DNA from: a virus
Length of the DNA: 35,419 nt
IMG/VR virus record: IMGVR_UViG_3300007770_000785
Location: 1 to 35,419 of that record
Direction: 5' to 3' (one strand)
The notes beneath the pieces are model-generated. The model ran no database searches, had not been told where the DNA came from, and saw only the letters and a program-made list of their open reading frames with translations. Below, one piece after another: positions 6,600-26,534 of this stretch. Made by a program: the position numbers and the translations under genes. The first letter of the stretch is position 1. Every line of letters begins with the position of its first letter.

Positions 6600-7862
6600 A
6601 TGGAAGAAAAAATAAAAGTATTAACGTTGGGAGACCATCCGTTGGCCGCCTCTGGAGTCGGCATCCAGACAAGAAATATGTGCGAGGCGCTTCTGAATAG
6701 CGGAAAGTTTAAAATAACAAGTTTTGGAGGCGCCATTAGGCATGAATCTTATAATCCCATGAAAACGGAGCGCTATGAGGATGATTGGATTATTCATCCA
6801 GTAGATGGTTATGGAAATCCCGACATGGTGAGATCTGTTTTACAAGCTGTAAAGCCCGACATCGTGTGGTTTATGACGGATCCTAGATTTTGGGGCTGGT
6901 TGTGGGCTATGGAAAACGAGATTAGAGGGTTGGCTCCCATGGTGTATTATCATGTTTGGGATAATTACCCCTACCCCACTTATAATAAGAGATTTTATGA
7001 GTCTAACGATCACATAGTCACCATATCTAAAGTGACTGATAACATCGTCCGAACTGTTGCACCCGATGTCCCGTGTACATACTTGCCTCACGCAGTTGAT
7101 TCAACTATTTTTAGAAAACTACCTGAAAACGAGTTTGATGTGTCACGCTTTAAACAAGACCATGGGATAGAGCCTGATAAGATGGTTTTTTTCTGGAATA
7201 GTAGGAACGCGCGCCGCAAACAGAGTGGTTCGCTTATCTTTTGGTTTAAAGACTTTTTGGACGAGGTCGGCCACGACAAGGCGACATTGTTGATGCACAC
7301 CAACACAAAGGATCCAAACGGTCAGGATCTTGATGCGATTATTCGTGAACTTGGACTCGATAATGGTGAGGTGTTGTTCTCGCGCGATTCAATAAGTCCA
7401 GAACAGATGTCACTGATATATAACATGGCTGATTGCACAATTTGCGTTTCTGACGCCGAAGGTTTCGGGTTATCTACTCTGGAATCGCTAGCATGCGGTA
7501 CTCCGATAATCACTACATTGACGGGAGGCCCCCAAGAACAGGTGACAGATGGTGCCAATTGGTTCGGAATAGGGCTTGAGCCAGCCTCTAAGGCCATTAT
7601 CGGCAGCCAGGAGGTACCATACATATACGAGGACCGCCTTTCAGGAGAGGATGTCGCAGCCGCACTAACAACGATGTACAGCATGACGTCACAGGAAAGA
7701 GAGGCCATGGGCCTCCTTGGTCTCAAGCATGTTGAAAAAAATTATAATTTTGAGGATTTTGGTTCAAAGTGGGTGAATTTGATGACTGATATACACAAGG
7801 AACATGGTTCGTGGGCTAGCCGAACTGGCTACAGTGCGTGGACCCTCGCGGAGGTGGCATGA
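6600..7862 (+). CDS. GT4-type glycosyltransferase
   Basis: A 420-residue GT-B fold glycosyltransferase. The N-terminal domain opens with a beta-strand and a glycine-rich loop (ASGVGIQTRN), and the C-terminal domain has the E-x7-E motif EGFGLSTLE with Glu287 and Glu295 that contacts the nucleotide-sugar in retaining family 4 enzymes, followed by ACGTPIITT. The donor and acceptor sugars cannot be told. AAAGGA precedes the ATG. It opens the 16-kb carbohydrate island, and its last bases overlap the next start as ATGA. No membrane segment is present, so it acts in the cytoplasm or at the inner face of the membrane. Confidence 0.9.
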   Translation: MEEKIKVLTLGDHPLAASGVGIQTRNMCEALLNSGKFKITSFGGAIRHESYNPMKTERYEDDWIIHPVDGYGNPDMVRSVLQAVKPDIVWFMTDPRFWGWLWAMENEIRGLAPMVYYHVWDNYPYPTYNKRFYESNDHIVTISKVTDNIVRTVAPDVPCTYLPHAVDSTIFRKLPENEFDVSRFKQDHGIEPDKMVFFWNSRNARRKQSGSLIFWFKDFLDEVGHDKATLLMHTNTKDPNGQDLDAIIRELGLDNGEVLFSRDSISPEQMSLIYNMADCTICVSDAEGFGLSTLESLACGTPIITTLTGGPQEQVTDGANWFGIGLEPASKAIIGSQEVPYIYEDRLSGEDVAAALTTMYSMTSQEREAMGLLGLKHVEKNYNFEDFGSKWVNLMTDIHKEHGSWASRTGYSAWTLAEVA

Positions 7863-9946
7863 GTAAGACAAAAGTAGTATTGCGTGGCCCATTGTTGAGC
7901 AGAAGTGGGTATGGAGAACAGGCTAGATTTGCTCTGAGATCTCTCAAGAGTGTTGAGGACGAGATAGACATCTATGTACGCGTATGTGGTTGGGGCGCCA
8001 CTTCTTGGACTCCTGAACAAACCGAAGAAACAAAGTGGATCAACGAACTTGCTGTAAAAACAGTCAACTATGAACAACTCCCGAATGCTGCACCGTATGA
8101 TGTGTCATTGCAAGTCACCATCCCCAACGAATGGGAGAAGTTGGCCAGATTTAATATTGGGTATACGGCTGGAATTGAGTCAACGGCCATCGCGCCCGAG
8201 TGGATCACAAAAGCCAATCTTATGGATAGAATCATAGTTACGTCTAATCATTCTAAATTTGGATTTGACAATTCTTCTTACTCCGGGCAAAATCCACAAA
8301 CGGGTGAGACAGTACATCTTGAAACAGAGACTCCAATTATCCCTGTGGGGTACCCAGTTCGTAAGTTGGATATCGAAAAAGTAGACTTAAAGCTGAGTAC
8401 TGATTTCAATTTTCTTTCTGTTGCGCAATGGAGTGTGCGAAAGAATCTTGAAAATACAATAGAGTGGTTTGTTAGAGAATTCAAAGACGAGGATATCGGC
8501 TTAGTTTTGAAGATGAATTGTGCTAACAATTCTAACCTTGATCGAGTCGAGACCCATGCGAGACTTGAGAGGATTTTGGCTTCGCACGCGGACAGAAAGT
8601 GCAAGGTATATCTTATTCATGGGGATATGACGGATCAGGAGATGCTTGGCCTCTACACTCATCCCAAGATTAAGGCTCTGATAAACTTCGCTCATGGTGA
8701 AGGGTTCGGCCTCCCTCTTTTTGAAGCGGCTCAGTGCGGGCTCCCTATTGTCGCAACTGATTGGAGTGGTCACACTGATTTCCTCTATGTCCCGACAGAA
8801 AACAAGAAAGGTAAGATTAAAAATAAGGGATATTTCGGTCGCGTGGCTTACGATCTTGCCCCAATACAGAAGGCCGCGCATTGGGACGGCGTACTGATCC
8901 CCCAATCACATTGGGCCTATCCTAGGGAGAATTCTGCTCGAACCGCCATACGGAAGTGTTACAAGGATTATTCTAGGCACAAATCTCAAGCAAAGAAGTT
9001 AAAAACATATGTAAACGAAACTTTTACTGAGGAGAGGCAATACGATAAATTCGTTAAGGGATGTCTTTTAGTGCCCGAACTTCCCGAAGTTGATTACATA
9101 TTTGTGAATGATGTGTTTGCTAACGAATATGTGGGCGGCGCCGAACTAAGCTTACAAACCTTGATCGATAGTTGTCCTGCTGATGGTTTAGAGGTTAAGT
9201 CGGCTCAAGTTAGTGGGAGAATCATTGACCACTATAAAGACAAAACTTGGGTATTTGCAAACGTCACTCAAATTACAGACACTATTCTTGAGAGGATTGT
9301 CGATAGTGGGATCACTTATTACGTTTCAGAATCAGATTATAAATACTGTGAAAGAAGGCTTCCGCAGTTGTGTAAAGTTTTCTCTGGAGGCCAAGATTGC
9401 ACATGTGGCAAAACTAGTCCTCGGGCCAAGTTGTATGAAAACTTCTACAATGGAGCTAAAACTGTATTTTTCCGTTCTTTGAAACAGATGAACGATTACA
9501 AGGAAGCGATTAATTTAACCAACAAGTCCATCGAGACTCTTTCGGCCCTATTTTCTGATGAGTTTTTTGAGAAGATCGACGAGTTGAAAACAGCAGAGAA
9601 AACAGATCGTTGGGTAATCAGTAGTTCCCCATCGTGGGTCAAGGGGGCCGTCGCCGCCGAACAGTGGTGCAGAAAAAATAAGAAGAATTATGAAAAAGTT
9701 CACGGCTTGCAGTATGATAAGGTGTTAGAGCTTTTAGCGACTTCCGAGGGCTTGTGTTTTCTTCCCAAGGGTTCAGATACATGTCCCCGACTTGTGATTG
9801 AAGCAAAACTTCTTGGTTGCAAACTCGAACTTAACGAGAATGTTTTACATGCTGAGGAAGAATGGTTCAAGACTGATGATCTCGGTGAAATTAGAAAGCA
9901 CTTGATAGCGCAGCCTAAGAAATTTTGGGATATTGTTACCGCGTGA
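7859..9946 (+). CDS. Tandem two-domain glycosyltransferase
   Basis: A 695-residue protein that appears to be two GT-B glycosyltransferase units in one chain. The first (residues about 1-405) is a full GT4-like enzyme with the E-x7-E motif EGFGLPLFE (Glu281, Glu289). The second (about 411-695) begins with a strand and the loop EYVGGAELSLQ typical of a GT-B N-domain and ends with a C-domain motif GSDTCPRLVIEAKLLGC that keeps only the second Glu. That motif is shared with the protein at 10704-11672 (PDACPNVVVDARASGC). The first domain may transfer one sugar and the second another, or be regulatory. ATG 7859 has GGAGG upstream and overlaps the previous stop; an in-frame GTG at 7838 is not needed. 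Confidence 0.85.
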   Translation: MSKTKVVLRGPLLSRSGYGEQARFALRSLKSVEDEIDIYVRVCGWGATSWTPEQTEETKWINELAVKTVNYEQLPNAAPYDVSLQVTIPNEWEKLARFNIGYTAGIESTAIAPEWITKANLMDRIIVTSNHSKFGFDNSSYSGQNPQTGETVHLETETPIIPVGYPVRKLDIEKVDLKLSTDFNFLSVAQWSVRKNLENTIEWFVREFKDEDIGLVLKMNCANNSNLDRVETHARLERILASHADRKCKVYLIHGDMTDQEMLGLYTHPKIKALINFAHGEGFGLPLFEAAQCGLPIVATDWSGHTDFLYVPTENKKGKIKNKGYFGRVAYDLAPIQKAAHWDGVLIPQSHWAYPRENSARTAIRKCYKDYSRHKSQAKKLKTYVNETFTEERQYDKFVKGCLLVPELPEVDYIFVNDVFANEYVGGAELSLQTLIDSCPADGLEVKSAQVSGRIIDHYKDKTWVFANVTQITDTILERIVDSGITYYVSESDYKYCERRLPQLCKVFSGGQDCTCGKTSPRAKLYENFYNGAKTVFFRSLKQMNDYKEAINLTNKSIETLSALFSDEFFEKIDELKTAEKTDRWVISSSPSWVKGAVAAEQWCRKNKKNYEKVHGLQYDKVLELLATSEGLCFLPKGSDTCPRLVIEAKLLGCKLELNENVLHAEEEWFKTDDLGEIRKHLIAQPKKFWDIVTA

Positions 9947-10707
9947 TGAGGGAAGAAAACAGCTTACTCGTTGTCTCCTCTATGTACAATGTCGAGAACT
10001 GGATTGACAGAACAATCAACAGTGTTTTGAGTCAAGACTATGAGAATTATCGTTATATCTTAGTAGATGATCTATCCACAGATAGAACTGTCTCAATTGC
10101 TAAGGAGTTGACCAACAAATACAAAAATATCCAAGTGGTCACAAACACAACTAAGAAGTTTTCGTTGAAAAATATTTACGAGGGTATAGAGGCGCTCAAG
10201 CCAAGTCCTGATGACATTGTTATAACCTTGGATGGTGACGACTGGTTGGCTAATCCTAATGTTTTCAGAACTCTAAACGACAAATATCACGACACTGACT
10301 GTTGGATGACATACGGCAGTTATATGGAATATCCATCTGGGAACATGGGCATCGAATCCAGTGCATACCCGGAGGAGCAATTGGGCGATAGTAAATTCAA
10401 TTTTCGAGAAGGCAAATGGCGTGCATCTCATTTGAGGACTTTTAAATACGGCCTTTTTTCTAAAATTAAGTATGAAGACTTTTTAGATTGGAACGGAGAG
10501 TTTTACAGAACCTCTATTGATAAAGCGTTTATGTATCCGATGATTGAGATGGCTCGCAATCGCTGTGAATTTATTGAGGATATTTTATACGTCTATAATT
10601 TTAGTAATCCGCTGAATGTTCACAAGGACAAGCGACAGTTACAACTACAGACTAGTCATTATCTTAAAAATGTAAAACAACCATATGCGCGAATAGACAG
10701 CCTGTGA
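9946..10707 (+). CDS. GT2 family glycosyltransferase
   Basis: A 253-residue GT-A fold family 2 enzyme. It shows the opening SSMYNVENWIDRTINSVLSQ, the nucleotide-binding VDDLSTD (residues 40-46) and the metal-binding DGDDW (96-100). These are the standard signs of an inverting transferase that uses a nucleotide-sugar and Mg or Mn. The C-terminal catalytic base region is less clear. ATG 9946 overlaps the previous stop as TGATGA; GTG 9943 is an alternative. The next gene starts at GTG 10704 inside its last codon, so translation is coupled on both sides. Confidence 0.9.
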   Translation: MREENSLLVVSSMYNVENWIDRTINSVLSQDYENYRYILVDDLSTDRTVSIAKELTNKYKNIQVVTNTTKKFSLKNIYEGIEALKPSPDDIVITLDGDDWLANPNVFRTLNDKYHDTDCWMTYGSYMEYPSGNMGIESSAYPEEQLGDSKFNFREGKWRASHLRTFKYGLFSKIKYEDFLDWNGEFYRTSIDKAFMYPMIEMARNRCEFIEDILYVYNFSNPLNVHKDKRQLQLQTSHYLKNVKQPYARIDSL

Positions 10708-11672
10708 ACATTTTATTAGATAACGTTAATCTGTCTTCCACTTCTGGGCCAAACCATTTTGGAAGAAAGTTGAAGCTCGGATTCGAAACAGCCGGCCACA
10801 CATGCCAAACTGATGTAGCAAATCCGGACATACAGTTGAGTTTTATAGAAACTAGGAAACACCCGGCTGACGTACCGTTAGTCCTCAGGATGGATGGGAT
10901 TTATTTCGACACGGAGTCGGATTTCGTCTCACAGAATAAAAATATCTTACGTTGTTACAAGATGGCCTCCGGGGTTATCTTTCAGTCGGAATATTGCAAA
11001 GAGTTAATCTTTAAGTTTTTTGGTGAACATCAGAATCATGAAGTTATTCACAATGGCGCAGATTTGGGGTATATAAATTCCATCGAGCCGATGCAAAACG
11101 AATTGACTACAAAGTTTGATAATGTATGGTCCTGCGCCTCTAGTTGGTATTACAATAACAATCCGAACACACCTCGTCGATGGAAGAGACTTAAGGAGAA
11201 TGTCGAGTTCTTTTTAGAATACGGAAAGGCCAACGATTGTTTGGTGGTAGCTGGAGATGTGCACCCTAAGGACCGCATGTCGCATGACCGCATTTTTTAT
11301 GTGGGGCGCCTCCAACCCGATGAGTTATTCTCTCTTTATAGGGCCTCCAAGCACTTTTTACATCTAGCTAGTCCCGACGCGTGTCCCAATGTTGTTGTCG
11401 ACGCCCGGGCGAGTGGATGCAAGGTTATCTGTTCTTCTCTCGGTGGTGCAAAAGAGATTGCGGGCCTTGACGCTTTGGTGGTAAAAGAAGACGAATGGGA
11501 CTACACCCCTATGAAACTTAACGGAGAAAGATTAATGGACTTAACAAATATTGGACCAAACTGTTATAATGTGGAGATGGACATGTCCGTGGTGACTCAA
11601 AGATATTTGAGCTTTTTAAATAACACGCTGGAACAACGATATTTGCAGATAGCTTTGGGGGAGAAAGAGTAA
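10704..11672 (+). CDS. GT-B type glycosyltransferase (GT4-like, divergent)
   Basis: A 322-residue protein starting with GTG that overlaps the preceding TGA. The N-terminus (MNILLDNVNLSSTSGPNHFG) is a GT-B strand-loop, and the C-terminal part has HNGADLGYINS, FYVGRLQPDEL and PDACPNVVVDARASGCKV, which is the position of the family 4 donor-binding motif. Only the second acidic residue of E-x7-E is in place, and as Asp. It is shorter than usual family members (350-400 residues). The same motif occurs in the second half of the tandem enzyme at 7859-9946, so the two may share an origin. Confidence 0.8.
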   Translation: MNILLDNVNLSSTSGPNHFGRKLKLGFETAGHTCQTDVANPDIQLSFIETRKHPADVPLVLRMDGIYFDTESDFVSQNKNILRCYKMASGVIFQSEYCKELIFKFFGEHQNHEVIHNGADLGYINSIEPMQNELTTKFDNVWSCASSWYYNNNPNTPRRWKRLKENVEFFLEYGKANDCLVVAGDVHPKDRMSHDRIFYVGRLQPDELFSLYRASKHFLHLASPDACPNVVVDARASGCKVICSSLGGAKEIAGLDALVVKEDEWDYTPMKLNGERLMDLTNIGPNCYNVEMDMSVVTQRYLSFLNNTLEQRYLQIALGEKE

Positions 11673-12562
11673 TGAAAGCTTGCATAAACTATATCTCATC
11701 TCGAAGCCGCTGTATTAAACGAAGCCTCCAATCACTTTGGGATAATTACAACAAAGATTACAACTACCCTGTTTACGTATATTATTTCGATGACATTTAC
11801 GATTCTGAAGTTTTTAGAAATGAAGTCAGATTGCAAGTAAGCGAAAATATTCATTTTGTTTCTGTGCCATACAAGACCCCCTCCTTTCTAAAGGAAGAAG
11901 AACTTTATTATAATCGCTTAGATATCAACTATGTTCGACGGAGTTTTTCCATTCAACGTAAGGGATACCTTCACATGTGTAATTTTAGGAGCAATATGTA
12001 CGGTTATCCCAATACACATTTTCATAAATATGACTGTGTGATGACGCACGATGATGAATCCGGTTATACACGACCCCTAGCGGTGGATCCTTTCGAAATT
12101 ATGTCCTCGCGCCCCGAAGTGATGGGGGCATTCTTTGTGGGACAGCGCCTGAAGAACGGAGCGCCACACCAAGGTCATTATGATACACGCCTCGGCCTGT
12201 GGGAATTTACTCGCAACTTTCTGCTCACCAACAATATAACACCAGCATCACCCCAACTACAAGAATTGCTGGAGAGTCCGACAGCCGAAAGAGATTTCCA
12301 TCTGTTGGAGTGGTGCGACACATATGTGATTAAGACTGAGATGTTTAAAAGCGATTTGTGGAAGAAGTGGATAGCCGCAGTTAATGAGAACGGCGGCATT
12401 TATAAATATCGCTGGGGCGATAACGAAATTATTACTCTTTTTGCTTACATATATGATGGTAATATTTTCGACCTAGGTCTCGTAGAGGACGGAACACTCG
12501 ATCAGGGAATGTTCCGCCATATGCAGGATATCGCACCAAGCATAAAAGATATTCAAAGGTAA
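11672..12562 (+). CDS. GT15-like alpha-mannosyltransferase
   Basis: The 296-residue protein shows the ordered motifs of the fungal Kre2/Mnt1 alpha-1,2-mannosyltransferases: GYLHMCNFRSNMYGYP (residues 98-113), matching their YRHMCRF-type motif; YDCVMTHDDES (120-130) at the place of the family's YDYYWRVEP stretch with the metal-binding acid; and GGIYKYRWGDNE (241-252), matching GGFYYERWGDAP. The donor in known members is GDP-mannose. Unlike the fungal Golgi enzymes it has no N-terminal membrane anchor. The start overlaps the previous stop (TAATG), with GGGGGAG upstream. The enzyme fits a pathway rich in GDP-sugars, as the GDP-fucose genes lie downstream. Confidence 0.75.
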   Translation: MKACINYISSRSRCIKRSLQSLWDNYNKDYNYPVYVYYFDDIYDSEVFRNEVRLQVSENIHFVSVPYKTPSFLKEEELYYNRLDINYVRRSFSIQRKGYLHMCNFRSNMYGYPNTHFHKYDCVMTHDDESGYTRPLAVDPFEIMSSRPEVMGAFFVGQRLKNGAPHQGHYDTRLGLWEFTRNFLLTNNITPASPQLQELLESPTAERDFHLLEWCDTYVIKTEMFKSDLWKKWIAAVNENGGIYKYRWGDNEIITLFAYIYDGNIFDLGLVEDGTLDQGMFRHMQDIAPSIKDIQR

Positions 12563-12572
12563 GGCGGGTATA

Positions 12573-13295
12573 ATGTCAATACAAACAAGAAAAAAAGTAA
12601 GATTTTTCAGCCATGGCATGTCGGGCACTACATGGTTAACATCGCTTACAACTTCTTTTTTTGATTGCGCTCATCGACCATCCCCAGAATTAAAAAGAAT
12701 TCACCCCCCCTCTACTCGCCTTCTCGGCCCTCACACACCTTTAAACATTATAGACGAATGTTGTGTGGACAGAAACTACTTGAACTCCCTCGATGCGGCT
12801 TGTATAGTATATGCGGATCCGAGAAATTCCCTTATATCGTTGGCTTCAAATTCCCGAAACCGCGCTATAACGCATTTGGGACATTTGCATACGGCCCCCT
12901 CTCACATCGAGCGTTATAAGTGTCGCACTGACGTTCTAGACTTCGACCCGTTTGACGTTCTAGACTTCGACCCGTTTAGCGATTTTTTTAATTCTTGGTT
13001 GTATCATGTCCCGACAATGCATTTGGAAAAACCTTTGGAAATTGGTTTTTTGAAGTACGAAAAGGTGGTTGAAAATCGGTATGAGTTAGCAAATTTTCTG
13101 GGAATATCAGAAGAGCGAAAAGAAGAGTACTGTGATCAAATTTTAACGACTTATCGTCCGCGTACTTCTAACTATGGAAGTCTCCCAACCTTGCAGCAGG
13201 ATAAATTAACTAAAATTCTTCAACCACTGCTTGAGACACAGAGTGGTATGGGTGATTTTCAGGTAAGAGTAATCAACCCACAGGAGACAATATGA
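12573..13295 (+). CDS. Sulfotransferase-like protein with internal tandem duplication
   Basis: A 240-residue protein with a P-loop-like HGMSGTTWL at residues 14-22, as in the 5'-phosphosulfate loop of PAPS-dependent sulfotransferases, and YADPRNSLISL (80-90) at the place of the 3'-phosphate motif. FLKYEKVVEN and the FLGI near residue 175 also match the late part of this fold. The usual Lys of the P-loop is not in its expected place, so activity is less certain than for the next gene. Residues 120-135 are a perfect repeat of the 8-mer DVLDFDPF caused by a 24-base duplication in the DNA. The next gene overlaps as ATGA. Confidence 0.65.
   Translation: MSIQTRKKVRFFSHGMSGTTWLTSLTTSFFDCAHRPSPELKRIHPPSTRLLGPHTPLNIIDECCVDRNYLNSLDAACIVYADPRNSLISLASNSRNRAITHLGHLHTAPSHIERYKCRTDVLDFDPFDVLDFDPFSDFFNSWLYHVPTMHLEKPLEIGFLKYEKVVENRYELANFLGISEERKEEYCDQILTTYRPRTSNYGSLPTLQQDKLTKILQPLLETQSGMGDFQVRVINPQETI
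12930..12977 (+). repeat. Exact 24-bp tandem duplication inside sulfotransferase gene
   Basis: Bases 12930-12953 and 12954-12977 are identical, and each encodes the 8 residues DVLDFDPF in frame. With no base difference between the copies, the duplication is recent or is actively maintained. It keeps the reading frame and adds an acidic, aromatic loop just before the helix SDFFNSWLYH. Confidence 0.97.
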
Positions 13296-13954
13296 CAAGT
13301 ACTGAAATTAAAGGCGAGATTGTGAGAAAATTTTGCAAACTTGATGAACGTGGTCACACTTTGTTGACACCGTTTGTGGTGTCTAGGGAAAGGAAGGTGA
13401 TATACTTTCACATCGCTAAAACCGGCGGTTCGTCTATTGTACATCTTTTACAAAAAAATGGTTTAGATGATAATGTCCTCTCTAACAAAAGAGGTAATTT
13501 CCAAGAAAAGGTTGAGTATTTTCTATCTTTGGTGGAGGATTGGGATTCTTACTACAAGTTTACTTTTGTGCGTAACAAGTACGATCAACTCGTCTCACTT
13601 TACAATTACGACCGCGCCATCCTTGGCGAAATGACATTTGCCGAGTTTATTCAAGAACGTGTTAACGCCCGCACTGAGTATTTTCCTATGTATGACTATT
13701 GGATTGATCAACATTTTTTGACCGTGGCCGGCGGTCAGGAGATATTTGATTTTGTGGGTCGATTTGAAAATTATGACCATGACTTAAAATTGGCTTGTGC
13801 TAATATCGGGATTCCTTTTGAGGATATTCGATCAAACCTTGGAACTTACGATAAAACCAAGAAGTCCTCGTATTATACACCCGAATTGAAACAGGTGGTG
13901 GATACAAAATTTGCTCGGGAGAGGGAACATTTCAATTGGGAGTTACAATTATGA
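13292..13954 (+). CDS. Carbohydrate sulfotransferase (Sulfotransfer_2-like)
   Basis: The 220-residue protein has HIAKTGGSS (residues 40-48), the PAPS 5'-phosphosulfate loop with the catalytic-type Lys43, and FVRNKYDQLVSLYNY (92-106), the 3'-phosphate motif seen as FRxPYDRLVSxYxY in Golgi 2-O- and 4-O-sulfotransferases that modify heparan and chondroitin. The expected role is transfer of sulfate from PAPS to a hydroxyl of a sugar. It is shorter than eukaryotic members and has no membrane anchor. No PAPS-making gene is in the window, so the host would supply PAPS. CAGGAGA precedes the ATG, which overlaps the stop of the other sulfotransferase. Confidence 0.85.
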   Translation: MTSTEIKGEIVRKFCKLDERGHTLLTPFVVSRERKVIYFHIAKTGGSSIVHLLQKNGLDDNVLSNKRGNFQEKVEYFLSLVEDWDSYYKFTFVRNKYDQLVSLYNYDRAILGEMTFAEFIQERVNARTEYFPMYDYWIDQHFLTVAGGQEIFDFVGRFENYDHDLKLACANIGIPFEDIRSNLGTYDKTKKSSYYTPELKQVVDTKFAREREHFNWELQL

Positions 13955-14676
13955 CAAATAAGATTAAAGACCTTCGTGAAGAAATCAAGAGTTTTCACGG
14001 ATTGTGGACAGGGGGTACTAGCCTAACCCGACAGGGTTTTAAAGCTGCAGCAGCAGCACGCCTTCGCCACGGATTGGATATGCACAAGATTTATGAAATG
14101 TGCATAGCCCCCTACATTACCTCAGAAACTGAGGCCTTAGATATTGGAACAAACGGTGGCGGGTGGTTGAAAATGATGTTAGGCGCCAAACGACTCGTTG
14201 GTATTGATATTCTCACGGCGGAACAGAGCGGCTTTTGGCGCAATATGCCTCGATTGGGCAATATTGAGTACCATCAGGTAGAAGATTTTAGCTGCGATTG
14301 TATCGAGGATAACAGCCTTGATCATGTTTTTTCATACGATGTGTTTTGTCACATTTCCTTCTCCGGTGCGACAGCTTATATGAAAAATCTTTATAGTAAG
14401 ATGCGCCCGGGCACAAATTGCTTTATCATGATTGGTGATGGTGACAAATACCAAGACCCCCGGGGTAAGGACAAATTAGCGATCTCTGCGGGTTTTTCTT
14501 CTTGGGAAGCTTTGGTTGCAGATTATGATGGCCCTCCGAATAAGGGCCGGTGGTATCTTTACGGGATTGAGAGGTTTTGCGCCATGGTTGAAGAACAGGG
14601 TTATCGCGTTATAAATCCAGATATTATAGGAACTTATGATAGAAACAGACCCATTGTTCATTTCGTGAGAGACTGA
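13951..14676 (+). CDS. SAM-dependent methyltransferase (class I)
   Basis: A 241-residue protein with the SAM-binding glycine motif ALDIGTNGGGWL (residues about 62-73) followed by the acidic strand end VGIDI (83-87), and a region YDVFCHISFSGATAYMKNL like motif IV-VI of small-molecule methyltransferases. The substrate is likely a sugar or glycan in view of its neighbours, but this is inferred from position only. I choose ATG 13951, which overlaps the previous stop as ATGA; a TTG at 13936 is in frame but unsupported. Confidence 0.8.
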   Translation: MTNKIKDLREEIKSFHGLWTGGTSLTRQGFKAAAAARLRHGLDMHKIYEMCIAPYITSETEALDIGTNGGGWLKMMLGAKRLVGIDILTAEQSGFWRNMPRLGNIEYHQVEDFSCDCIEDNSLDHVFSYDVFCHISFSGATAYMKNLYSKMRPGTNCFIMIGDGDKYQDPRGKDKLAISAGFSSWEALVADYDGPPNKGRWYLYGIERFCAMVEEQGYRVINPDIIGTYDRNRPIVHFVRD

Positions 14677-14681
14677 AATTA

Positions 14682-15620
14682 GTGAATATTCTGTTTTTAG
14701 ATCCTGTCACCCTATCTTCGACGGCCACCCGGTATACGTATTATAACGGACTGTTTCTTGAATTACAAAAACAACACAACGTACACCATTATACTGGGGT
14801 TCCGCAAGATTTTGCTGAATTGGAAGGGAAAATCGGGTTCAAGGCCGATTATATCGTTTTTGGCCTAGGGTGGTTTAAGCACAAATACTATGGGCACATC
14901 AAGAATTTGAATATTCCAAGTGTATGCTTCCTGTTCAAACCACAGAATCAGTTGGCGGAAAAATTGGAATTCTGTCGAATCAACAATATTGATCTGATTT
15001 TAACGCCTGTGCCCGAAATGGAAAAATATGAGGAAATAAGTGGGGTACGTACCGAGTTATTTCCTTACGGATTTGATCCGCTGACGTTCAGCCCACGACC
15101 CATTGACATAAAATATGACATAGGGTTTAGCGGGGCACTTCACCAAAGTCAACATTATCCCAACGACGCGTTTCATGTGGAGAATTTACGTCCCAAGATT
15201 GGTGCCCTATTACAGCCCATGGAGGGTGTGCGCACTTTTTGGAAGTCTAGTGACGTTACGTCGACCGCCTATGTTCACGATATGAAGGAGTATGCCGCCA
15301 CAATCAACTCTTCTCGGATGTGGATTGCGACCCTCGCTGCCTATGGGGACGTGACCCCGCGTTTTTATGAGGTGCTTGGATCGGGTACTCTGCTATTTTG
15401 TCAACAGATTCCTGAAGCATACAAATTCTTGTTAAAGGACGGTATAAATTGTGTTACATTTAAGGACGACTTGAGCGACTTCGAAGAAAAAATACGATTT
15501 TATATAAATCATCCTGATGAAGCTGCGCGCATAGCACAGGTGGCTACGCAATTTTTCCACAACCATTGCACTTGGTCTGCTCGTGCTGGAGCTTTGTGCA
15601 AGCAATTGGCGGAATTGTAA
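14682..15620 (+). CDS. CgeB/YkvP-like glycosyltransferase
   Basis: A 312-residue GT-B-like protein beginning at GTG 14682, five bases after the methyltransferase stop. The C-terminal half includes YDIGFSGALHQ, SSRMWIATLAAYGDVTPRFYEVLGSGTLLFC and a final helix region, which match the pattern of the CgeB/YkvP group of glycosyltransferases, where the conserved E of RFYEVLG is in the donor site. The donor is unknown. No good ribosome binding site precedes the GTG, so translation may depend on coupling to the gene before. Confidence 0.75.
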   Translation: MNILFLDPVTLSSTATRYTYYNGLFLELQKQHNVHHYTGVPQDFAELEGKIGFKADYIVFGLGWFKHKYYGHIKNLNIPSVCFLFKPQNQLAEKLEFCRINNIDLILTPVPEMEKYEEISGVRTELFPYGFDPLTFSPRPIDIKYDIGFSGALHQSQHYPNDAFHVENLRPKIGALLQPMEGVRTFWKSSDVTSTAYVHDMKEYAATINSSRMWIATLAAYGDVTPRFYEVLGSGTLLFCQQIPEAYKFLLKDGINCVTFKDDLSDFEEKIRFYINHPDEAARIAQVATQFFHNHCTWSARAGALCKQLAEL

Positions 15621-15623
15621 CTC

Positions 15624-16319
15624 ATGCAATATATGAAGCATTATTCTAAGAAATTTCAAGCATTTAAGGCCCTCCTTGCCAAAGAGGATCCGATAATTTT
15701 AGAAATTGGAGCACACTATGGAGAGGATAGTCTCCGGTTCGCGGAGATATTTCGAAATCCTACCATCTATTGTTTCGAACCAGATCCAAGGAACATACAG
15801 ATCTTTAAGAAGCATGTTTCAAACTCCCGAATACAATTATTTCCGATCGCCCTTTCCGATAAAAAGGGAACTCTCCCATTTTATCCGAGCTATCAGCAAT
15901 GCGAAGACCTTGATGTTCCACAAAAATATGATTGGATTAGTCATGAAGATTATAATGATATGGCTCTTAATAGCTCAGGCGCCTCGTCTTTGAAGCGTGG
16001 CTACGAACACGCAGGCCCACCCATCGAAGTAAACGTCGAGAGATTTGATAGTTGGTATGTCCAGGCCAACTTGGGCAAGATCGACCTCATCTGGATAGAT
16101 GTACAGGGCGCCGAGAGGGAGGTTGTTGACGGTATGGGTGTTGAGATTAAAAATGTGAAGTATTTGTGGATAGAGTATGGTGAGTCAATTTACGAAGGCG
16201 CTATGACGCGTTCTGAGACTGTAGAGTTGTTTGGGAAAAAGGGTTTTGATGTCTTGGAAGGAATGTCCGACACCACCCCCAGTGGCGACATTATGTTTTA
16301 TAACAGGGAGTTGAGATGA
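15624..16319 (+). CDS. FkbM-family methyltransferase
   Basis: A 231-residue protein with LEIGAHYGED (residues 26-35) as the SAM-binding motif, CFEPDP (50-55) at the end of strand 2, and IDLIWIDVQGAE (153-164) as the metal/active region of FkbM methyltransferases. Members of this family O-methylate sugars and antibiotics. ATG 15633 (MKHYSKK) is an alternative start. Its stop overlaps the next gene as ATGA. Confidence 0.88.
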   Translation: MQYMKHYSKKFQAFKALLAKEDPIILEIGAHYGEDSLRFAEIFRNPTIYCFEPDPRNIQIFKKHVSNSRIQLFPIALSDKKGTLPFYPSYQQCEDLDVPQKYDWISHEDYNDMALNSSGASSLKRGYEHAGPPIEVNVERFDSWYVQANLGKIDLIWIDVQGAEREVVDGMGVEIKNVKYLWIEYGESIYEGAMTRSETVELFGKKGFDVLEGMSDTTPSGDIMFYNRELR

Positions 16320-17176
16320 CTGAAAATTTATTAGAGCTTATGGGGTATCATGAAAAGTGGCATGCCCAGATTCAGAGCCGCCGGCGCCCATACAAATACA
16401 ATACCAATGATTTCATAATAGGTGAGATATTTGAACGCCTTGAAATAACGAATGGTACTTTTGTAGAATTTGGCGCTTGGGATGGTTTGGTATTGTCTAA
16501 TACTCGCAAGTTGTTCGAGGAGGGCTGGGGAGGTCTCTTGATAGAGGCGGATCCTCACAAGTACGAGGAATTAAAAACCAATTATGAAAACTTCGATCGA
16601 GTGACTACTGTAAATTGTTTTGTTGACACTGAGGATAATTTAATTGATAAGGTGTTTACGGATCACTTGCAAGAAAATATAGACTTCTGTTCAATTGATA
16701 TTGATGGCCTTGATTTGGACATATTCGAGACTTTTGAGGTGAATCTCCCCAAGGTGGTGTGTATTGAGGGTGGCCAAGTTCTTCACCCTTTTCACCCTCG
16801 TATATCGTCCGACATCTCTGCTCACAATATACAACAAAGTTTATCTGTCATGAATGAAGCTTTTGAAACGAAAGGATATAAACTTTTGTGCACATATCAG
16901 GATTGTTTTTTCATAAAAGAGGAATATTATCATCTATTCAATGTAGATGAAGACCTGACCAACCAGTACGTTGACGGTCTCATGGCGCTCCCGCGCATTC
17001 CGTATTTAAAAAACATCCTTGATTCTCATGGGTTTAAGAACGGAATCATTGATCGGGCTATTGAGAACATCCCTCCTCTCCACCATGCAGCCCCGAAAGC
17101 TCAAAAAATGGCCTGGGTCGATGCACATTATTTACTGATTAAAGACAGACTAGAATTCATGAAGAATCCTGCATAG
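16316..17176 (+). CDS. FkbM-like methyltransferase, longer variant
   Basis: The 286-residue protein has TFVEFGAWDG (residues 48-57), LLIEADP (74-80) and FCSIDIDGLDLDIF (124-137), in the same order and spacing as the FkbM motifs but with DIDGLD in place of the DVEGAE type. It carries about 100 further residues at the C-terminus, ending in a helical basic region. It could methylate a sugar; the changed active-site motif leaves this open. It follows another FkbM gene directly, overlapping it by four bases. Confidence 0.78.
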   Translation: MTENLLELMGYHEKWHAQIQSRRRPYKYNTNDFIIGEIFERLEITNGTFVEFGAWDGLVLSNTRKLFEEGWGGLLIEADPHKYEELKTNYENFDRVTTVNCFVDTEDNLIDKVFTDHLQENIDFCSIDIDGLDLDIFETFEVNLPKVVCIEGGQVLHPFHPRISSDISAHNIQQSLSVMNEAFETKGYKLLCTYQDCFFIKEEYYHLFNVDEDLTNQYVDGLMALPRIPYLKNILDSHGFKNGIIDRAIENIPPLHHAAPKAQKMAWVDAHYLLIKDRLEFMKNPA

Positions 17177-17178
17177 TT

Positions 17179-18015
17179 ATGATAGTTGTCAAACTCACCA
17201 ATGGCCTAGGGAATAACTTCTTTCAATTTATTGCGGCCAAACAGATGGCGATTGCGCATTCTCAAGAATTGGCGCTTTATTGTCAGGAGGGGTATTATGG
17301 CATCGAGATTATGGAAGCATTGGGGATAAAGGTTTTAACTAAAAACCCCCTTTCAGGCGGCCGCGCTGTCAACGTAAACGACGACAACTACTCTTATTGG
17401 TTGGCTGCAGCCGAGCGTCCGCCTAACTTGATGCTTAATGGATATTTCGAAAATTACAAGTATTATGTTGATTCACTTGCGGAGATAGGGGGCTGGTTTC
17501 CCTCCGTCGATAAGCGACCTTCGGAAGACATGGTGCTTCATTTGCGAGCAGGCGATCGCCTTCTTTACAAAAGCACCTTCTCTCACCGCACCCGCGTGGA
17601 GACATACTTGGAGGGTCTTTCACAATTTGAGTTTGAAAATCTACATATTGTAACAGACATGCCTCGCTGGGGTCATTATACTGCTGAGGAGATCGAAGAG
17701 ATGAATGTACACTGCCCTGTGCCACAAGAGGTCCGCGTTGATTCACAATCGTCTGCAGATTATTTTAATTCCTTCGTCGACGGCCTCGCTTATCACAATC
17801 CAATTGTTACGCGGAGATCGATTTTTGAGGACTTTAATTTTATGAGAAGTTTTGATAAAATAATGATACAACACAGTACCTTGGCGTGGTGGGCCGCAGT
17901 ATTAAGTGATGCTAGTTCGGTTGGCGTTTACGGTCCGTGGCGCCCATGGAAAGGAAAAAGTAACAAGAATTTGAGTAACATCGGTCTTGAAGGGTGGTTC
18001 CAGTGGGGAAATTAA
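17179..18015 (+). CDS. GT11-like alpha-fucosyltransferase
   Basis: The 278-residue protein starts IVVKLTNGLGNNFFQF (GLGN motif at residues 9-12, as in GLGNQMFQYA of alpha-1,2-fucosyltransferases), has HLRAGD at 121-126 (the HxRxGD GDP-fucose binding motif) and QHSTLAWWAAVLSD at 231-244 (matching the SNSTFSWWGAWL motif). These three together place it in family GT11 or close to it. GDP-L-fucose is the expected donor, and the two genes that make this donor follow at once. It is a soluble protein. There is no clear Shine-Dalgarno sequence before ATG 17179. Confidence 0.78.
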   Translation: MIVVKLTNGLGNNFFQFIAAKQMAIAHSQELALYCQEGYYGIEIMEALGIKVLTKNPLSGGRAVNVNDDNYSYWLAAAERPPNLMLNGYFENYKYYVDSLAEIGGWFPSVDKRPSEDMVLHLRAGDRLLYKSTFSHRTRVETYLEGLSQFEFENLHIVTDMPRWGHYTAEEIEEMNVHCPVPQEVRVDSQSSADYFNSFVDGLAYHNPIVTRRSIFEDFNFMRSFDKIMIQHSTLAWWAAVLSDASSVGVYGPWRPWKGKSNKNLSNIGLEGWFQWGN

Positions 18016-18016
18016 C

Positions 18017-18949
18017 ATGAGTGAGGAAAAGATATTGGTAACCGGGGGCACCGGTATGGTGGGAGTAGCCCTACAACAAGAGTTGCCTCAGGCGCAATTT
18101 TTGAGTTCCAAGTCTTGCGATCTAATAAGTGCGTCCGCAACAGAAGCTCTTTTCGAACAACGGGAGATAGAAAGAATTATACACCTAGCTGCTAAGGTGG
18201 GAGGTATCAAGGCAAATTCTGATAATTTGGCAACATTTTGCTACGAAAATAGTATGATAAACAACAACCTGTTCCATACAGCGCAAAAACATGGCGTCAA
18301 GAAGATCCTCTCTTTGTTGAGCACTTGCGTGTATCCAGACATTGCGTCGTATCCACTCACTGAGAAACAAATACACAATGGACCTCCTCACTCTTCCAAC
18401 TATGCTTACGCATATGCCAAGCGCATGTTGGATGTACAATCACGAGCCTATCGTGATCAATATGGATGCAACTATGTTACTGCAGTCCCCAATAATCTTT
18501 TTGGAGAAAATGATAACTTTGATCTGGAGAATTCTCATGTCATACCTGCCATTATCCGGAAAGTGTACGAGGCTAAGCAAAGCGGGGGAGATGTACTTTT
18601 GTGGGGCGACGGAACGCCCTTGAGAGAGTTTACATATACCCCTGATTTGGCGAAAATTCTACATTTTTTGCTTGAAAATTATGACGATCCAACCCCTATT
18701 AACATTGGCAATACTATAGAAATAGAGATAAAGAGTGTGGCCATCTTGATCGCGGAAATATTTGATTTTAAAGGGGAATTGAAGTGGGACGCCACAAAAC
18801 CTAAAGGTCAATTTCGTAAGCCTGCAGATAATTCGAAATTACTAAAACTCGGATGGTCAACTGATGATTACACCCCCTTCCCAGAGGCTCTTGAAAATAC
18901 ATGTCTTTGGTTTGCACATAATTATCCGAAAGTTAGGGGCGTTGTATGA
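18017..18949 (+). CDS. fcl: GDP-L-fucose synthase
   Basis: A 310-residue short-chain dehydrogenase/epimerase. TGGTGMVG (residues 9-16) binds NADP, STCVYP contains Cys104 at the place of the catalytic cysteine of E. coli Fcl, and YAYAK gives Tyr131 and Lys135. The enzyme makes GDP-L-fucose from GDP-4-keto-6-deoxymannose by epimerising C3 and C5 and reducing C4. The E. coli enzyme has 321 residues. ATG 18017 lies just after the previous stop; an upstream in-frame start at 17987 would overlap the fucosyltransferase. It overlaps gmd by four bases. Confidence 0.92.
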   Translation: MSEEKILVTGGTGMVGVALQQELPQAQFLSSKSCDLISASATEALFEQREIERIIHLAAKVGGIKANSDNLATFCYENSMINNNLFHTAQKHGVKKILSLLSTCVYPDIASYPLTEKQIHNGPPHSSNYAYAYAKRMLDVQSRAYRDQYGCNYVTAVPNNLFGENDNFDLENSHVIPAIIRKVYEAKQSGGDVLLWGDGTPLREFTYTPDLAKILHFLLENYDDPTPINIGNTIEIEIKSVAILIAEIFDFKGELKWDATKPKGQFRKPADNSKLLKLGWSTDDYTPFPEALENTCLWFAHNYPKVRGVV

Positions 18950-19923
18950 AGACTGCGTTAATAACTGGAATCACAGGTCAAGATGGTTCCTATTTGGCTG
19001 AACTATTGTTGTCCAAGAACTACCGTGTTATAGGGCTTAAAAGGAGGACATCATCTATATCTACCGACCGCGTGGACGGTGTCTATGACCATCCAAACTT
19101 TAAGATGGAATATTTTAACTTTCATGATACTGGTGTTTTTTACCGCATCTTACAAACTTACAAGCCAGAAGAGGTTTATAATTTAGGCGCACAATCTCAT
19201 GTTCGAGTTTCTTTTGATGTTCCGGAGGAGACGGTAGCAACCATTGCTATGGGTACAACTCGACTATTGGAGGCGATTAGAAACGTAGACCCTACTATCA
19301 AGTTTTATCAAGCATCTTCGTCAGAAATGTTTGGCGACAATCCGACAGTCCCGCAAGACGAGTTAACAGCACTTATGCCCGCAAGCCCATATGCTTGCGC
19401 TAAAGTTTTTGCCCATAACTTGGTTAGAAATTACAGACAATCTTACGGTCTGTTCGCGTGTTCGGGAATATTGTTTAATCACGAGTCTCCTCGCCGCGGC
19501 GAAACGTTTGTGACTCGCAAAATCACCATTGCTGCAGCACGTATCAAGCTGGGCCTCCAAGAGACGCTTTATTTGGGAAATTTAGACGCTAAGCGTGACT
19601 GGGGTTTTGCAGGAGATTACGTGGAGGCGATGTGGCTTATGTTACAAAAAGATAAACCAAACGATTATGTTATTGCAACCGGCGAGACGCATACGGTTAG
19701 AGAATTTCTGCAGGAAGTTTTTGCACACGCCGAGTTGGATGTGGACAAACATGTGGAGATTGATCAACGCCTATATCGCCCACACGAAGTCCCTGTGTTG
19801 CTGGGGGATCCTGCGAAAGCGCTAAAAGAGTTGGCGTGGTCTCCTAAGATAAAATTTAATGAACTTGCTGAGTTGATGTATACTGAAGACTTGGAAAGAG
19901 TAAAGAGGAGTATAAATGACTGA
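18946..19923 (+). CDS. gmd: GDP-mannose 4,6-dehydratase
   Basis: The 325-residue protein has the typical Gmd start ALITGITGQDGSYLAELL (NADP loop TGITGQDG at 7-14), GLKRRTSS, the catalytic SSSE at 124-127 and YACAK with Tyr149 and Lys153, and NHESPRRGETFVTRKI of the substrate site. It converts GDP-D-mannose to GDP-4-keto-6-deoxy-D-mannose, the first step toward GDP-L-fucose. It is slightly shorter than the usual 345-370 residues. The order fcl-gmd, next to a fucosyltransferase, gives a complete local route from GDP-mannose to fucosylated product. The next gene overlaps by eight bases. Confidence 0.96.
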   Translation: MKTALITGITGQDGSYLAELLLSKNYRVIGLKRRTSSISTDRVDGVYDHPNFKMEYFNFHDTGVFYRILQTYKPEEVYNLGAQSHVRVSFDVPEETVATIAMGTTRLLEAIRNVDPTIKFYQASSSEMFGDNPTVPQDELTALMPASPYACAKVFAHNLVRNYRQSYGLFACSGILFNHESPRRGETFVTRKITIAAARIKLGLQETLYLGNLDAKRDWGFAGDYVEAMWLMLQKDKPNDYVIATGETHTVREFLQEVFAHAELDVDKHVEIDQRLYRPHEVPVLLGDPAKALKELAWSPKIKFNELAELMYTEDLERVKRSIND

Positions 19924-20503
19924 CACGAGAGATTTGAAAATTGATATAGTGCGCGGTGACGTTGTGATTGATTGCGGCGCGAACGTTGGGGTGGTTACTC
20001 AACACTTTCGACGCTTAGGTGCAACTGTATATGCTTTTGAACCGAATCCCCACGCGTTCATTGCTTTGGACATGAATTTTGCAAATGACCCAAATGTATT
20101 TTGCTTGAAAAAGGGGGTTGCGTCTCCCGAGCAAGCCGGCCCTGGAAAGTTGTTTCTGCACGAATACGCTGAGACCGATCAGTTAACCTATTCTACCGGG
20201 TCTTCAATTAACCCCGACAAGGGAAATGTTGATGTCAATAACTATTTAGAGATAGAATTGATAGATTTGTGCAAGTTTATTAAGGACTTGGGAGTTCCCA
20301 TAAAGGTGCTGAAGATCGACATCGAGGGGGCTGAAATAGAGTTGTTAAATGCCCTTATTGATCAAGGCCTTACTTCAGTAATAGAACATATTTTTGTGGA
20401 AACTCATGAAAAAAAGATTCCATCCTTACGCACGCCGTTAGAGTTACTAAAAGAAAAGATAGAAGAGAAAAACATCACAAACATTGATTTAACGTGGCGG
20501 TAG
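19916..20503 (+). CDS. FkbM-family methyltransferase, short
   Basis: A 195-residue protein with VIDCGANVGVVT (residues 17-28), YAFEPNP (39-45) and KVLKIDIEGAE (130-140), all clear FkbM motifs. GAGGAG lies a few bases before ATG 19916, which overlaps the end of gmd. It is the third FkbM-type gene in the island and the last before a 111-base gap. A sugar O-methyl transfer is the likely reaction. Confidence 0.88.
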   Translation: MTDTRDLKIDIVRGDVVIDCGANVGVVTQHFRRLGATVYAFEPNPHAFIALDMNFANDPNVFCLKKGVASPEQAGPGKLFLHEYAETDQLTYSTGSSINPDKGNVDVNNYLEIELIDLCKFIKDLGVPIKVLKIDIEGAEIELLNALIDQGLTSVIEHIFVETHEKKIPSLRTPLELLKEKIEEKNITNIDLTWR

Positions 20504-20548
20504 CCTTGGCATCTCCGGTCGCCTTATCCGTACACCCTCAGATATAGT

Positions 20549-20577
20549 TTAAAATTACACACATTATGCATTATAAT
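20549..20577 (+). promoter_or_regulatory. Candidate sigma70-type promoter inside the island
   Basis: TTAAAA (20549-20554) and a perfect TATAAT (20572-20577) are separated by 17 bases. It lies in the only sizeable gap of the carbohydrate island (20504-20614) and points to the membrane protein, epimerase and dehydrogenase genes. AT-rich gaps give such matches by chance, so this is moderate support. Confidence 0.45.
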
Positions 20578-20614
20578 TAACAGTGTAGCAAGCACTCGAA
20601 CACAGGACTTAATT

Positions 20615-20839
20615 TTGGTACAGAGAAGAAGGCATATAGCGAAAACGATCACCTGGAGAATCATAGCAACTAGTACGACGATGTGGTTCACATGGCTTGT
20701 AACTAGGGATTGGTCGGTGGCCACGAGTGTTGGCGCCTTTAACGTATTCGCAAAATTAATCCTATACTATCTTCATGAGAGGGCGTGGTACCAATTTGAT
20801 TTTGGAGTCCAATCGAGGAGAAGGAGGGAACGGAAATGA
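20615..20839 (+). CDS. DUF2061 family small membrane protein
   Basis: A 74-residue protein with the DUF2061 pattern: a basic start then KTITWRIIATSTTMW, a first membrane segment to about residue 30, a second hydrophobic segment, and the hallmark ending KLILYYLHERAWYQF. It is expected to have two transmembrane helices in the inner membrane; the function of the family is not known. The only fitting start is TTG 20615, with AGGA at 20604-20607 seven bases upstream. Its last codons overlap the epimerase start by four bases. Confidence 0.85.
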   Translation: MVQRRRHIAKTITWRIIATSTTMWFTWLVTRDWSVATSVGAFNVFAKLILYYLHERAWYQFDFGVQSRRRRERK

Positions 20840-21714
20840 GAGCACTCATAACTGGACATTTAGGTTACATTGGCGGCCACCTCGCCAGGGAACTGAAGAA
20901 ACAAGGCCATGCCATTTGCGGAATTGATCTGAAAGAGGGGCAGGATTTACTAGATGGCATTCCTGAGAGAATAAGACAGTTTGCTCCAGATGTTGTTTTT
21001 CATCTGGCCGCCATACCCCGCGTTGCGTATAGTGTGGAAAACCCCCTGCACGTTATGAAGAACAACATTGTCTCAACCTCAATAGTCCTTGATTATGCCC
21101 GCCAGAACAACACGCCTGTTATTTACAGCAGTTCGTCCTCGGTAATCGGGAACGGCGATGGTCCTGCTAGCCCATACGCTCTTTCCAAACACGTTGGGGA
21201 GGTGGAGAGCCTTTTGTATCATAAACTCTATGGACTTAAGACTGTTGCATTAAGGTATTTCAATGTATACTCATATGATCAGACGGCTGAAAACGAGTAT
21301 GCTACAGTTGTGTGTAACTGGAAAAAATTCATAACAGAGGGCAAAACTCCCTTTATAACCGGCGACGGAGAGCAAAGAAGGGATATGACACATGTAAGTG
21401 ACATTGTTTCGGCGAATATCTTTTGTGCCAAGAATCTGGACAATGAAAGTTTGTGGGGTCAGTGGTACGACGTAGGCTCGGGGGACAATATTAGTCTTAA
21501 TGAACTAAAAGAGATTGTACTGCAATTGGATTGTTTTCCGAATCAAAAGTTTGAATATATTGCTCCACGTCCTGGCGATGTGATGCTAACGCGCGCCGAC
21601 ACTAGCAAGTTTGAACAGCATGGTTGGCACAGCGACGTGCGATTGAGGGAGGGCCTAACAGATATTTATCGTAGGCTAGCGCAAGAGATTGGCCCAGCCG
21701 TCAGAGGAAGGTAG
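20836..21714 (+). CDS. NAD-dependent UDP-sugar 4-epimerase-like protein
   Basis: A 292-residue extended SDR protein with TGHLGYIG (residues 7-14), HLAAIPRV, SSSSSVIG at the catalytic Ser position, and YALSK with Tyr114 and Lys118. RYFNVYS and the later RRDMTHVSDIV match UDP-glucose or UDP-N-acetylglucosamine 4-epimerases (GalE/WbpP group). The exact substrate cannot be read from sequence. GGAGGG lies before ATG 20836. The dehydrogenase gene starts one base after its stop, which suggests the two act on linked UDP-sugars. Confidence 0.85.
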   Translation: MRALITGHLGYIGGHLARELKKQGHAICGIDLKEGQDLLDGIPERIRQFAPDVVFHLAAIPRVAYSVENPLHVMKNNIVSTSIVLDYARQNNTPVIYSSSSSVIGNGDGPASPYALSKHVGEVESLLYHKLYGLKTVALRYFNVYSYDQTAENEYATVVCNWKKFITEGKTPFITGDGEQRRDMTHVSDIVSANIFCAKNLDNESLWGQWYDVGSGDNISLNELKEIVLQLDCFPNQKFEYIAPRPGDVMLTRADTSKFEQHGWHSDVRLREGLTDIYRRLAQEIGPAVRGR

Positions 21715-22602
21715 GTGAACAAAAAGTACAACATAGGGATTATTGGCAACGGGTTTGTTGGTTCTGCGGTCGCGTATGGTTTTTCACCTCAATGCGGTTA
21801 TGACGCAAATGTTCGAATTTACGACAAACAGCAAGAAAAATCAAATTGCTCTTTAGAGGAAACGGTTAATGAATCAGACTTTATTTTCTTATCCGTTCCG
21901 ACGCCATCAAATCAAGATGGCTCGATTCACTTGGGGATCATAGAGACAGCGCTGGCCGAAATCAATGATGCCAAGGTTGACACTAAAAAGGAGAATGTAG
22001 TACTGATAAGATCTACGGTCGTTCCCGGCACTACTCGAAAATTGGCAAAGAAGTATCCACGTCTAAATTTGGTGTTTAATCCGGAGTTTCTTACCGAGAG
22101 GTCTGCGAAGTTTGATTTTATAAACCAATCGAGGTTTATAATAGGTGGTTGCAGTTATATGCCTGACACTCCCCGATGGGAAACTGCTGCCGTTGCGAAC
22201 TTATTCAAGCATAGGTTTGGGAATTCAACCCCCGTTGTTATGTGTGATTATGAGACTGCGGAGATTATCAAGTATATGAATAACTGCTTTTTTGCTCTAA
22301 AAGTTTCTTTCTTGAATGAGATGAGAATGTTAGCGGAGAAAAGTAATGTTGATTGGGACGTTGCGGTGGATGGTTTTGTTAGAGATGGTCGCGTCGGCCA
22401 CTCCCATCTCCAGGTTCCAGGCCCTGATGGAAAATTTGGTTTTGGGGGCTCTTGTTTCCCAAAGGACTTGCGGGCAATAATCCAGTTTGGCGAAGAAAAC
22501 GAAGTTGATATGAAGACGCTCAAGGCGGCTTGGGAAACAAATTTAATAGTACGTCCTGAGAGGGACTGGGAAAAACTTAAAGGACGATCAGTCATTGAAT
22601 AA
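21715..22602 (+). CDS. UDP-glucose/GDP-mannose dehydrogenase-like protein, lacking C-terminal domain
   Basis: The 295-residue protein starts with GTG 21715 (AGGTAG upstream). It has the NAD loop GIIGNGFVGSA (residues 8-18), FNPEFLTE (121-128), EIIKYMNNCFFALK (183-196) with Lys186 and Asn190, and FGFGGSCFPKD (241-251) with catalytic Cys247. These mark the NAD-binding and central helical domains of UDP-glucose 6-dehydrogenase. Family members usually have about 390-450 residues; here the third domain, which completes the UDP-sugar site, is absent, and the DNA downstream encodes an unrelated small gene. It may work as a short form, use another partner, or act on a smaller substrate. Confidence 0.85.
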   Translation: MNKKYNIGIIGNGFVGSAVAYGFSPQCGYDANVRIYDKQQEKSNCSLEETVNESDFIFLSVPTPSNQDGSIHLGIIETALAEINDAKVDTKKENVVLIRSTVVPGTTRKLAKKYPRLNLVFNPEFLTERSAKFDFINQSRFIIGGCSYMPDTPRWETAAVANLFKHRFGNSTPVVMCDYETAEIIKYMNNCFFALKVSFLNEMRMLAEKSNVDWDVAVDGFVRDGRVGHSHLQVPGPDGKFGFGGSCFPKDLRAIIQFGEENEVDMKTLKAAWETNLIVRPERDWEKLKGRSVIE

Positions 22603-26532: not shown

Positions 26533-26534
26533 TT

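Follow-up and report, generated by a model that had tools for sequence, protein, structure and literature searches.

In plant cytosolic sulfotransferases, region I forms the site for the 5'-phosphate of the donor PAPS, and Arg130 and Ser138 bind the 3'-phosphate (PMC4199319). The 3' motif is present in 18 of the 22 Arabidopsis sulfotransferases and is reportedly missing from the other four, so that loss of this motif alone is not proof of inactivity (PMC4199319). Human SULT4A1 has the SULT fold, but a PAPS-dependent activity has never been described for it and its solved structure carries no bound PAPS or PAP (PMC11275347). Sulfotransferases have also been noted in phages, where their role has been described as unclear (PMC10580990). 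Our literature search on sulfotransferase pseudoenzymes found none.

The stretch of DNA analysed here (the window) is a complete virus record of 35.4 kb, probably an incomplete genome, and represents a fragment of a T4-like myophage. An initial annotation, made from the sequence alone, had drawn attention to two neighbouring open reading frames with sulfotransferase-like motifs, and both the coordinates and the motif letters were reproduced exactly. HGMSGTTWL corresponds to residues 14-22 and DPRNSLISL to residues 82-90 of the first protein (gene A), while HIAKTGGSS and FVRNKYDQLVSLYNY (residues 92-106) belong to the second (gene B; Table 1). The two genes are adjacent, lie on the same strand and overlap by 4 bases. 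Neither is a chance frame, since gene B has a relative that is 64% identical and both genes recur within this island in three further viral contigs.

Table 1. Positions of the features discussed in the text. Locations refer to the window unless another contig is named.
Feature	Location	Strand	Remarks
Gene A	12573..13295	+	240 aa; SULT / Sulfotransfer_1 side; sulfotransferase fold without canonical PAPS-binding Lys and Arg
Gene A, 5'-PSB-like loop SHGMSGTTWL	12609..12638	+	Met16 (codon 12618-12620) occupies the Lys/Arg position
Gene A, His54	12732..12734	+	candidate catalytic base; invariant in four phage members
Gene A, 3'-PSB-like motif ADPRNSLIS	12813..12839	+	Ala81 instead of the 3'-phosphate Arg; Ser89 retained
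Gene A, tandem duplication	12929..12976	+	exact, in-frame, 24-nt; DVLDFDPF twice; window copy
Gene B	13292..13954	+	220 aa; Sulfotransfer_2 family sulfotransferase
Gene B, 5'-PSB loop HIAKTGGSS (residues 40-48)	13409..13435	+	Lys43 and Ser48 invariant in 14 aligned members
Gene B, 3'-PSB motif RNKYDQLVS	13571..13597	+	Arg94 and Ser102 invariant in 14 aligned members
Glycan-biosynthesis island enclosing genes A and B	about 6600..22602	+	~16 kb; Pfam, NCBIfam, PHROGs
Second, distinct Sulfotransfer_2 gene	L039:15942-16685; L040:14247-14957; L041:15161-15874		Lys and Arg kept; absent from the window
APS-kinase-like domain fused to cytidylyltransferase-like domain	L045:955-1761 (record G005)	-	PF01583, 47.7 bits

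Matches to Pfam, NCBIfam and PHROGs place both genes within a glycan-biosynthesis island whose genes all point in one direction. It encodes glycosyltransferases of several types (GT4-, GT2- and GT15-type, including a GT15-like mannosyltransferase), FkbM and other methyltransferases, epimerases, a UDP-glucose/GDP-mannose dehydrogenase and a GDP-mannose 4,6-dehydratase that exceeds the NCBIfam equivalog cut-off. The flanks are phage genes: PhoH and an exonuclease precede the island, and it is followed by T4-type baseplate wedge proteins and a late sigma factor.

By all the tests available, which draw on its sequence and a predicted model, gene B is an ordinary sulfotransferase and a further example of an already known kind. 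Golgi carbohydrate sulfotransferases belong to the Sulfotransfer_2 family, and the resemblance to them that had been proposed for gene B was borne out by its membership of the same family (PF03567, E 9.7e-10), with a score of 39.4 bits against a cut-off of 22. The same profile is matched at E <= 0.001 by 12 of the 14 aligned gene B members, and gene B also matches PHROG 3347 ('Galactose-3-O-sulfotransferase') with an E value of 2.2e-11. A PDB search using its single sequence returned spurious matches only. The AF2 model (pLDDT 88) shows a confident sulfotransferase fold, and the first PDB matches returned by Foldseek are sulfotransferases, SULT7A1 being the best (E 2.9e-4).

Only five columns of the 14-member alignment are invariant (Lys43, Ser48, Phe90, Arg94 and Ser102), and four of these residues are the ones expected in the 5' and 3' PAPS motifs. 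The Arg and Ser of the 3' motif are each present in 84/84 cellular relatives; the Lys is likewise found in 84/84, a count that is not independent because this residue belonged to the search pattern. Identity to gene B is 48-64% for relatives in other viral contigs and 24-37% for the cellular relatives. In a phylogenetic tree, gene B groups with four orthologues in a phage clade of its own, apart from the cellular members (support 100/99), the deeper placement outside this clade being unsure owing to long branches.

Gene A presents a different picture. Its score against Sulfotransfer_1 (PF00685) is 14.2 bits, under the cut-off of 22, so that of the two proteins only gene B passed the Pfam check proposed for both; PF00685 matches were obtained for two of the four phage members of the gene A family, with a best E value of 0.0025. 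When a profile of the four phage sequences was searched against the PDB, plant and animal cytosolic sulfotransferases were recovered (best E 9.1e-6), and the alignment covered both PSB motifs and the FLKYE segment of these enzymes. Comparison by hhalign of the gene A family with 30 bacterial SULTs gave a probability of 97.7%. The AF2 model of gene A is of moderate confidence (pLDDT 68, pTM 0.73); Foldseek nevertheless placed sulfotransferases at PDB ranks 1-22 (best E 4e-3, none at E <= 0.001), among them SULT1C1 with a probability of 0.99. Structure prediction, which had been suggested as a check, thus returned sulfotransferases first for both proteins. We conclude that assignment of gene A to the sulfotransferase fold, made by profile and structure methods only, is sound even though the model is moderate.

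We also considered whether gene A is a recent duplicate of gene B. This was ruled out by setting the profiles of the two against each other, which showed no detectable relation (probability 1.1%). Pfam, profile and structure evidence together uphold the claim of two different sulfotransferases side by side: genes A and B are neighbouring members of two independent sulfotransferase-fold lineages.

We next turn to the donor site of gene A. Met16 aligns to the Lys of SYPKTGTTWL in AtSOT18 (HMMER) and of TYAKSGTTWM in the bacterial SULTs (hhalign). Similarly, Ala81 (within YADPRNSLIS) aligns to the 3' Arg of WREPKDTFIS in AtSOT18 and of ARDGRDVVWS in the bacterial SULTs. Both substitutions are therefore placed identically by two alignments that used different programs and different targets (AtSOT18 and 30 bacterial SULTs). 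Across the five gene A family members the 5' Lys/Arg position is occupied by M/A/S/S/G and the 3' Arg position by A/G/A/G/G, the 5'/3' pairs of the relatives being Ala/Gly, Ser/Ala and Ser/Gly in the phages and Gly/Gly in an alphaproteobacterium. By comparison, the 5' position of the 30 bacterial SULTs is Lys in 29 and Arg in one, and the 3' position is Arg in 30/30; this set, drawn from a Pfam search of 274 genomes, is biased to proteins with high scores, and motifs guided the choice of the six sequences that seeded its profile. Since all five members are without both cations, against 30/30 that have both, gene A is not a canonical PAPS sulfotransferase. The motifs of gene A had been read as evidence of a working PAPS site, and this part of the initial annotation does not hold: judged by its sequence, the loop quoted as a PAPS loop is without the residue that makes it one.

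Other positions are retained. Gly18, Arg84, Ser89 and Arg197 are present in 5/5 family members, and the two arginines among them might stand in for the missing cations. His54 aligns with the His of the THIPYE segment of AtSOT18 by HMMER but not by hhalign. The Arg of the GTR loop is found in three of the five members and is missing from the window protein and from L169. These features mark gene A as a new departure from the SULT family that may be a scaffold or pseudoenzyme, or may use other contacts.

The island, with syntenic gene content, and gene B are shared by four other uncultured phage contigs (L038-L041, from records of 50.6, 102.6, 45.2 and 61.2 kb), which were fetched through gene B; three of the four also encode a relative of gene A. 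The fourth, L038, starts just upstream of gene B, so that a copy of gene A could be either absent or located beyond the contig edge; by eye, the place of A is taken by a frame similar to the final part of the L039 methyltransferase. Conservation of the A-B adjacency was considered and dropped, because in the three relatives with both genes B comes first, followed by one intervening gene and then A, the reverse of the order in the window. Direct adjacency is thus particular to the window, whereas the contigs that are informative on this point generally have the two genes together in the island. The three relatives with gene A also carry, within the island, a second Sulfotransfer_2 gene of a separate lineage (Table 1).

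The gene A family found so far has five members, from four phages and one alphaproteobacterium. The alphaproteobacterial relative was recovered when 385 genomes were searched with a profile, and it carries both substitutions together with many of the invariant residues. Searches with the single gene A sequence found no relatives in phages or plasmids (tblastn to E 10 and E 1) or in viral contigs, a scan of viral contigs for the pattern GM[ST]GTTWL retrieved unrelated frames only, a family scan of 84,980 genomes gave zero confirmed relatives, and none was found among 369 gammaproteobacteria. The family is kept at about 30% identity, and conservation across this distance argues for some function.

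Four further frames of the window deserve mention. A 702-aa glycosyltransferase (7838-9946) is an apparent gene fusion, its two parts corresponding to two separate neighbouring ORFs of L041 (4551-5846 and 5843-6706). The ORF at 3062-3913 lies in a GC-rich patch (about 55% vs about 42%), is Ala/Thr-rich with repeated segments and is matched by nothing in Pfam or PHROGs; between the flanking genes, L040 and L041 showed no counterpart. The ORF at 5134-5817 is kept in both of these contigs and probably encodes a phage metallopeptidase-like protein, to judge from a weak, sub-cut-off match to the ATLF metallopeptidase domain family (26.2 vs 27.4 bits). The last, a 1942-aa ORF (26505-32333), lies upstream of the baseplate genes and matches neither Pfam nor PHROGs.

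It had been observed that neither ATP sulfurylase nor APS kinase is visible, and neither of them, nor a CysD-type domain, was found within the 35.4 kb window. No APS kinase was detected in records G001-G004 either, and searches of records G001-G005 for ATP sulfurylase and CysD-type domains were likewise negative. The window and the records of its relatives are probably all fragments, and because the 35.4 kb record is probably incomplete the absence can be claimed for the window only. G005, a more distant phage record of 150.8 kb, has seven Sulfotransfer_2 genes; it also encodes the fusion protein listed in Table 1, whose layout recalls PAPS synthetases, its second domain not being ATP sulfurylase by Pfam. 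Use of host PAPS would be the simplest reading for this phage group, as genes for PAPS synthesis were not found in the fragments. The proposal that the phage draws on host PAPS is accordingly plausible for gene B, with the reservation that it rests on the absence of genes from a fragment.

The account that we consider probable combines these observations. The island would build a methylated glycan containing deoxy-sugars and uronate for the phage, which may be carried on the virion or on the surface of the infected cell. Gene B would act as a PAPS-dependent O-sulfotransferase on a sugar of this glycan, with PAPS supplied by the host, and on sequence grounds is the only one of the pair for which conventional activity can be expected. 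Gene A would represent an old line of sulfotransferase-fold proteins from which the two residues that hold PAPS by its 5' and 3' phosphates, Lys and Arg, have been lost. The loop glycine and the serine of the 3' motif are still there, and the phage proteins also keep a histidine that may once have been the catalytic base. Gene A most likely performs no usual sulfation and may instead be a partner protein that binds sugar or provides a scaffold, or else an enzyme whose contacts with the donor have changed. Counting against this account are the pLDDT of 68 for the gene A model and the E values of its PDB matches, all above 0.001.

Retention of Gly18, Arg84, Arg197 and Ser89 in all five members, the candidate catalytic His shared by the four phage proteins and the SULT-type fold could alternatively be explained if A and B were both working PAPS sulfotransferases with different acceptors, A gripping PAPS through Arg84, Arg197 and, in 3/5 members, the GTR-loop Arg. 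We regard this as rather unlikely, because two normally near-invariant cations are missing from every gene A member and the alternative GTR Arg is itself missing from the window protein and L169. That gene A is a decaying gene without function is very improbable: its PAPS residues are lost, it contains an exact 24-nt tandem duplication and similarity among members is low, but the frame is open in four phages in the same island, and the alphaproteobacterial relative has identical positions substituted and many invariant residues. Shared substitutions combined with many retained residues resemble a stable lineage and not decay. Apart from the score of gene A under the Pfam cut-off, little would favour two other P-loop proteins, such as kinases, and this we hold to be extremely improbable. 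Profile searches did not assign the two proteins to non-sulfotransferase P-loop families: gene B passes PF03567, the gene A profile matches SULTs of the PDB and of bacteria, and structure searches with both models return sulfotransferases first.

The preferred account, in which gene A is without a canonical donor site, can be taken further, though tentatively: gene A may found a sulfotransferase-fold lineage, present in phages and in one or more bacteria, which has abandoned PAPS and contributes to the building of glycans, either by using another donor or as the non-catalytic partner of a true sulfotransferase. The lineage offers a natural test of whether a sulfotransferase fold can persist without its donor site, and it cautions that an SGTTW-like motif is no proof of a PAPS site. 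With the island recurring in several uncultured phages and holding as many as three genes of the sulfotransferase fold, it becomes a concrete hypothesis that such phages make a sulfated glycan.

Compared with known systems, gene B matches both Sulfotransfer_2 and PHROG 3347 and has their PAPS residues; it differs in forming, with its four orthologues, a phage clade of its own whose cellular relatives are 24-37% identical. Pelagibacter phage Mosig (MT647606) has a 'putative sulfotransfer' gene beside glycosyltransferases and methyltransferases that is similar to gene B, but the identity is 27.5% over part of B and the neighbourhood is another one; no relative of gene A was found in the phage collection containing this record. 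Gene A resembles the cytosolic sulfotransferases of PF00685 (SULT / plant SOT, e.g. AtSOT18, 5mek) in its PSB motifs, FLKYE segment and fold, whereas its family is without the 5' Lys/Arg and the 3' Arg and falls below the Pfam cut-off. SULT4A1 is the second-ranked Foldseek match to gene A. However, SULT4A1 retains the PAPS-binding sequences, and its peculiarity is a shortened lid loop.
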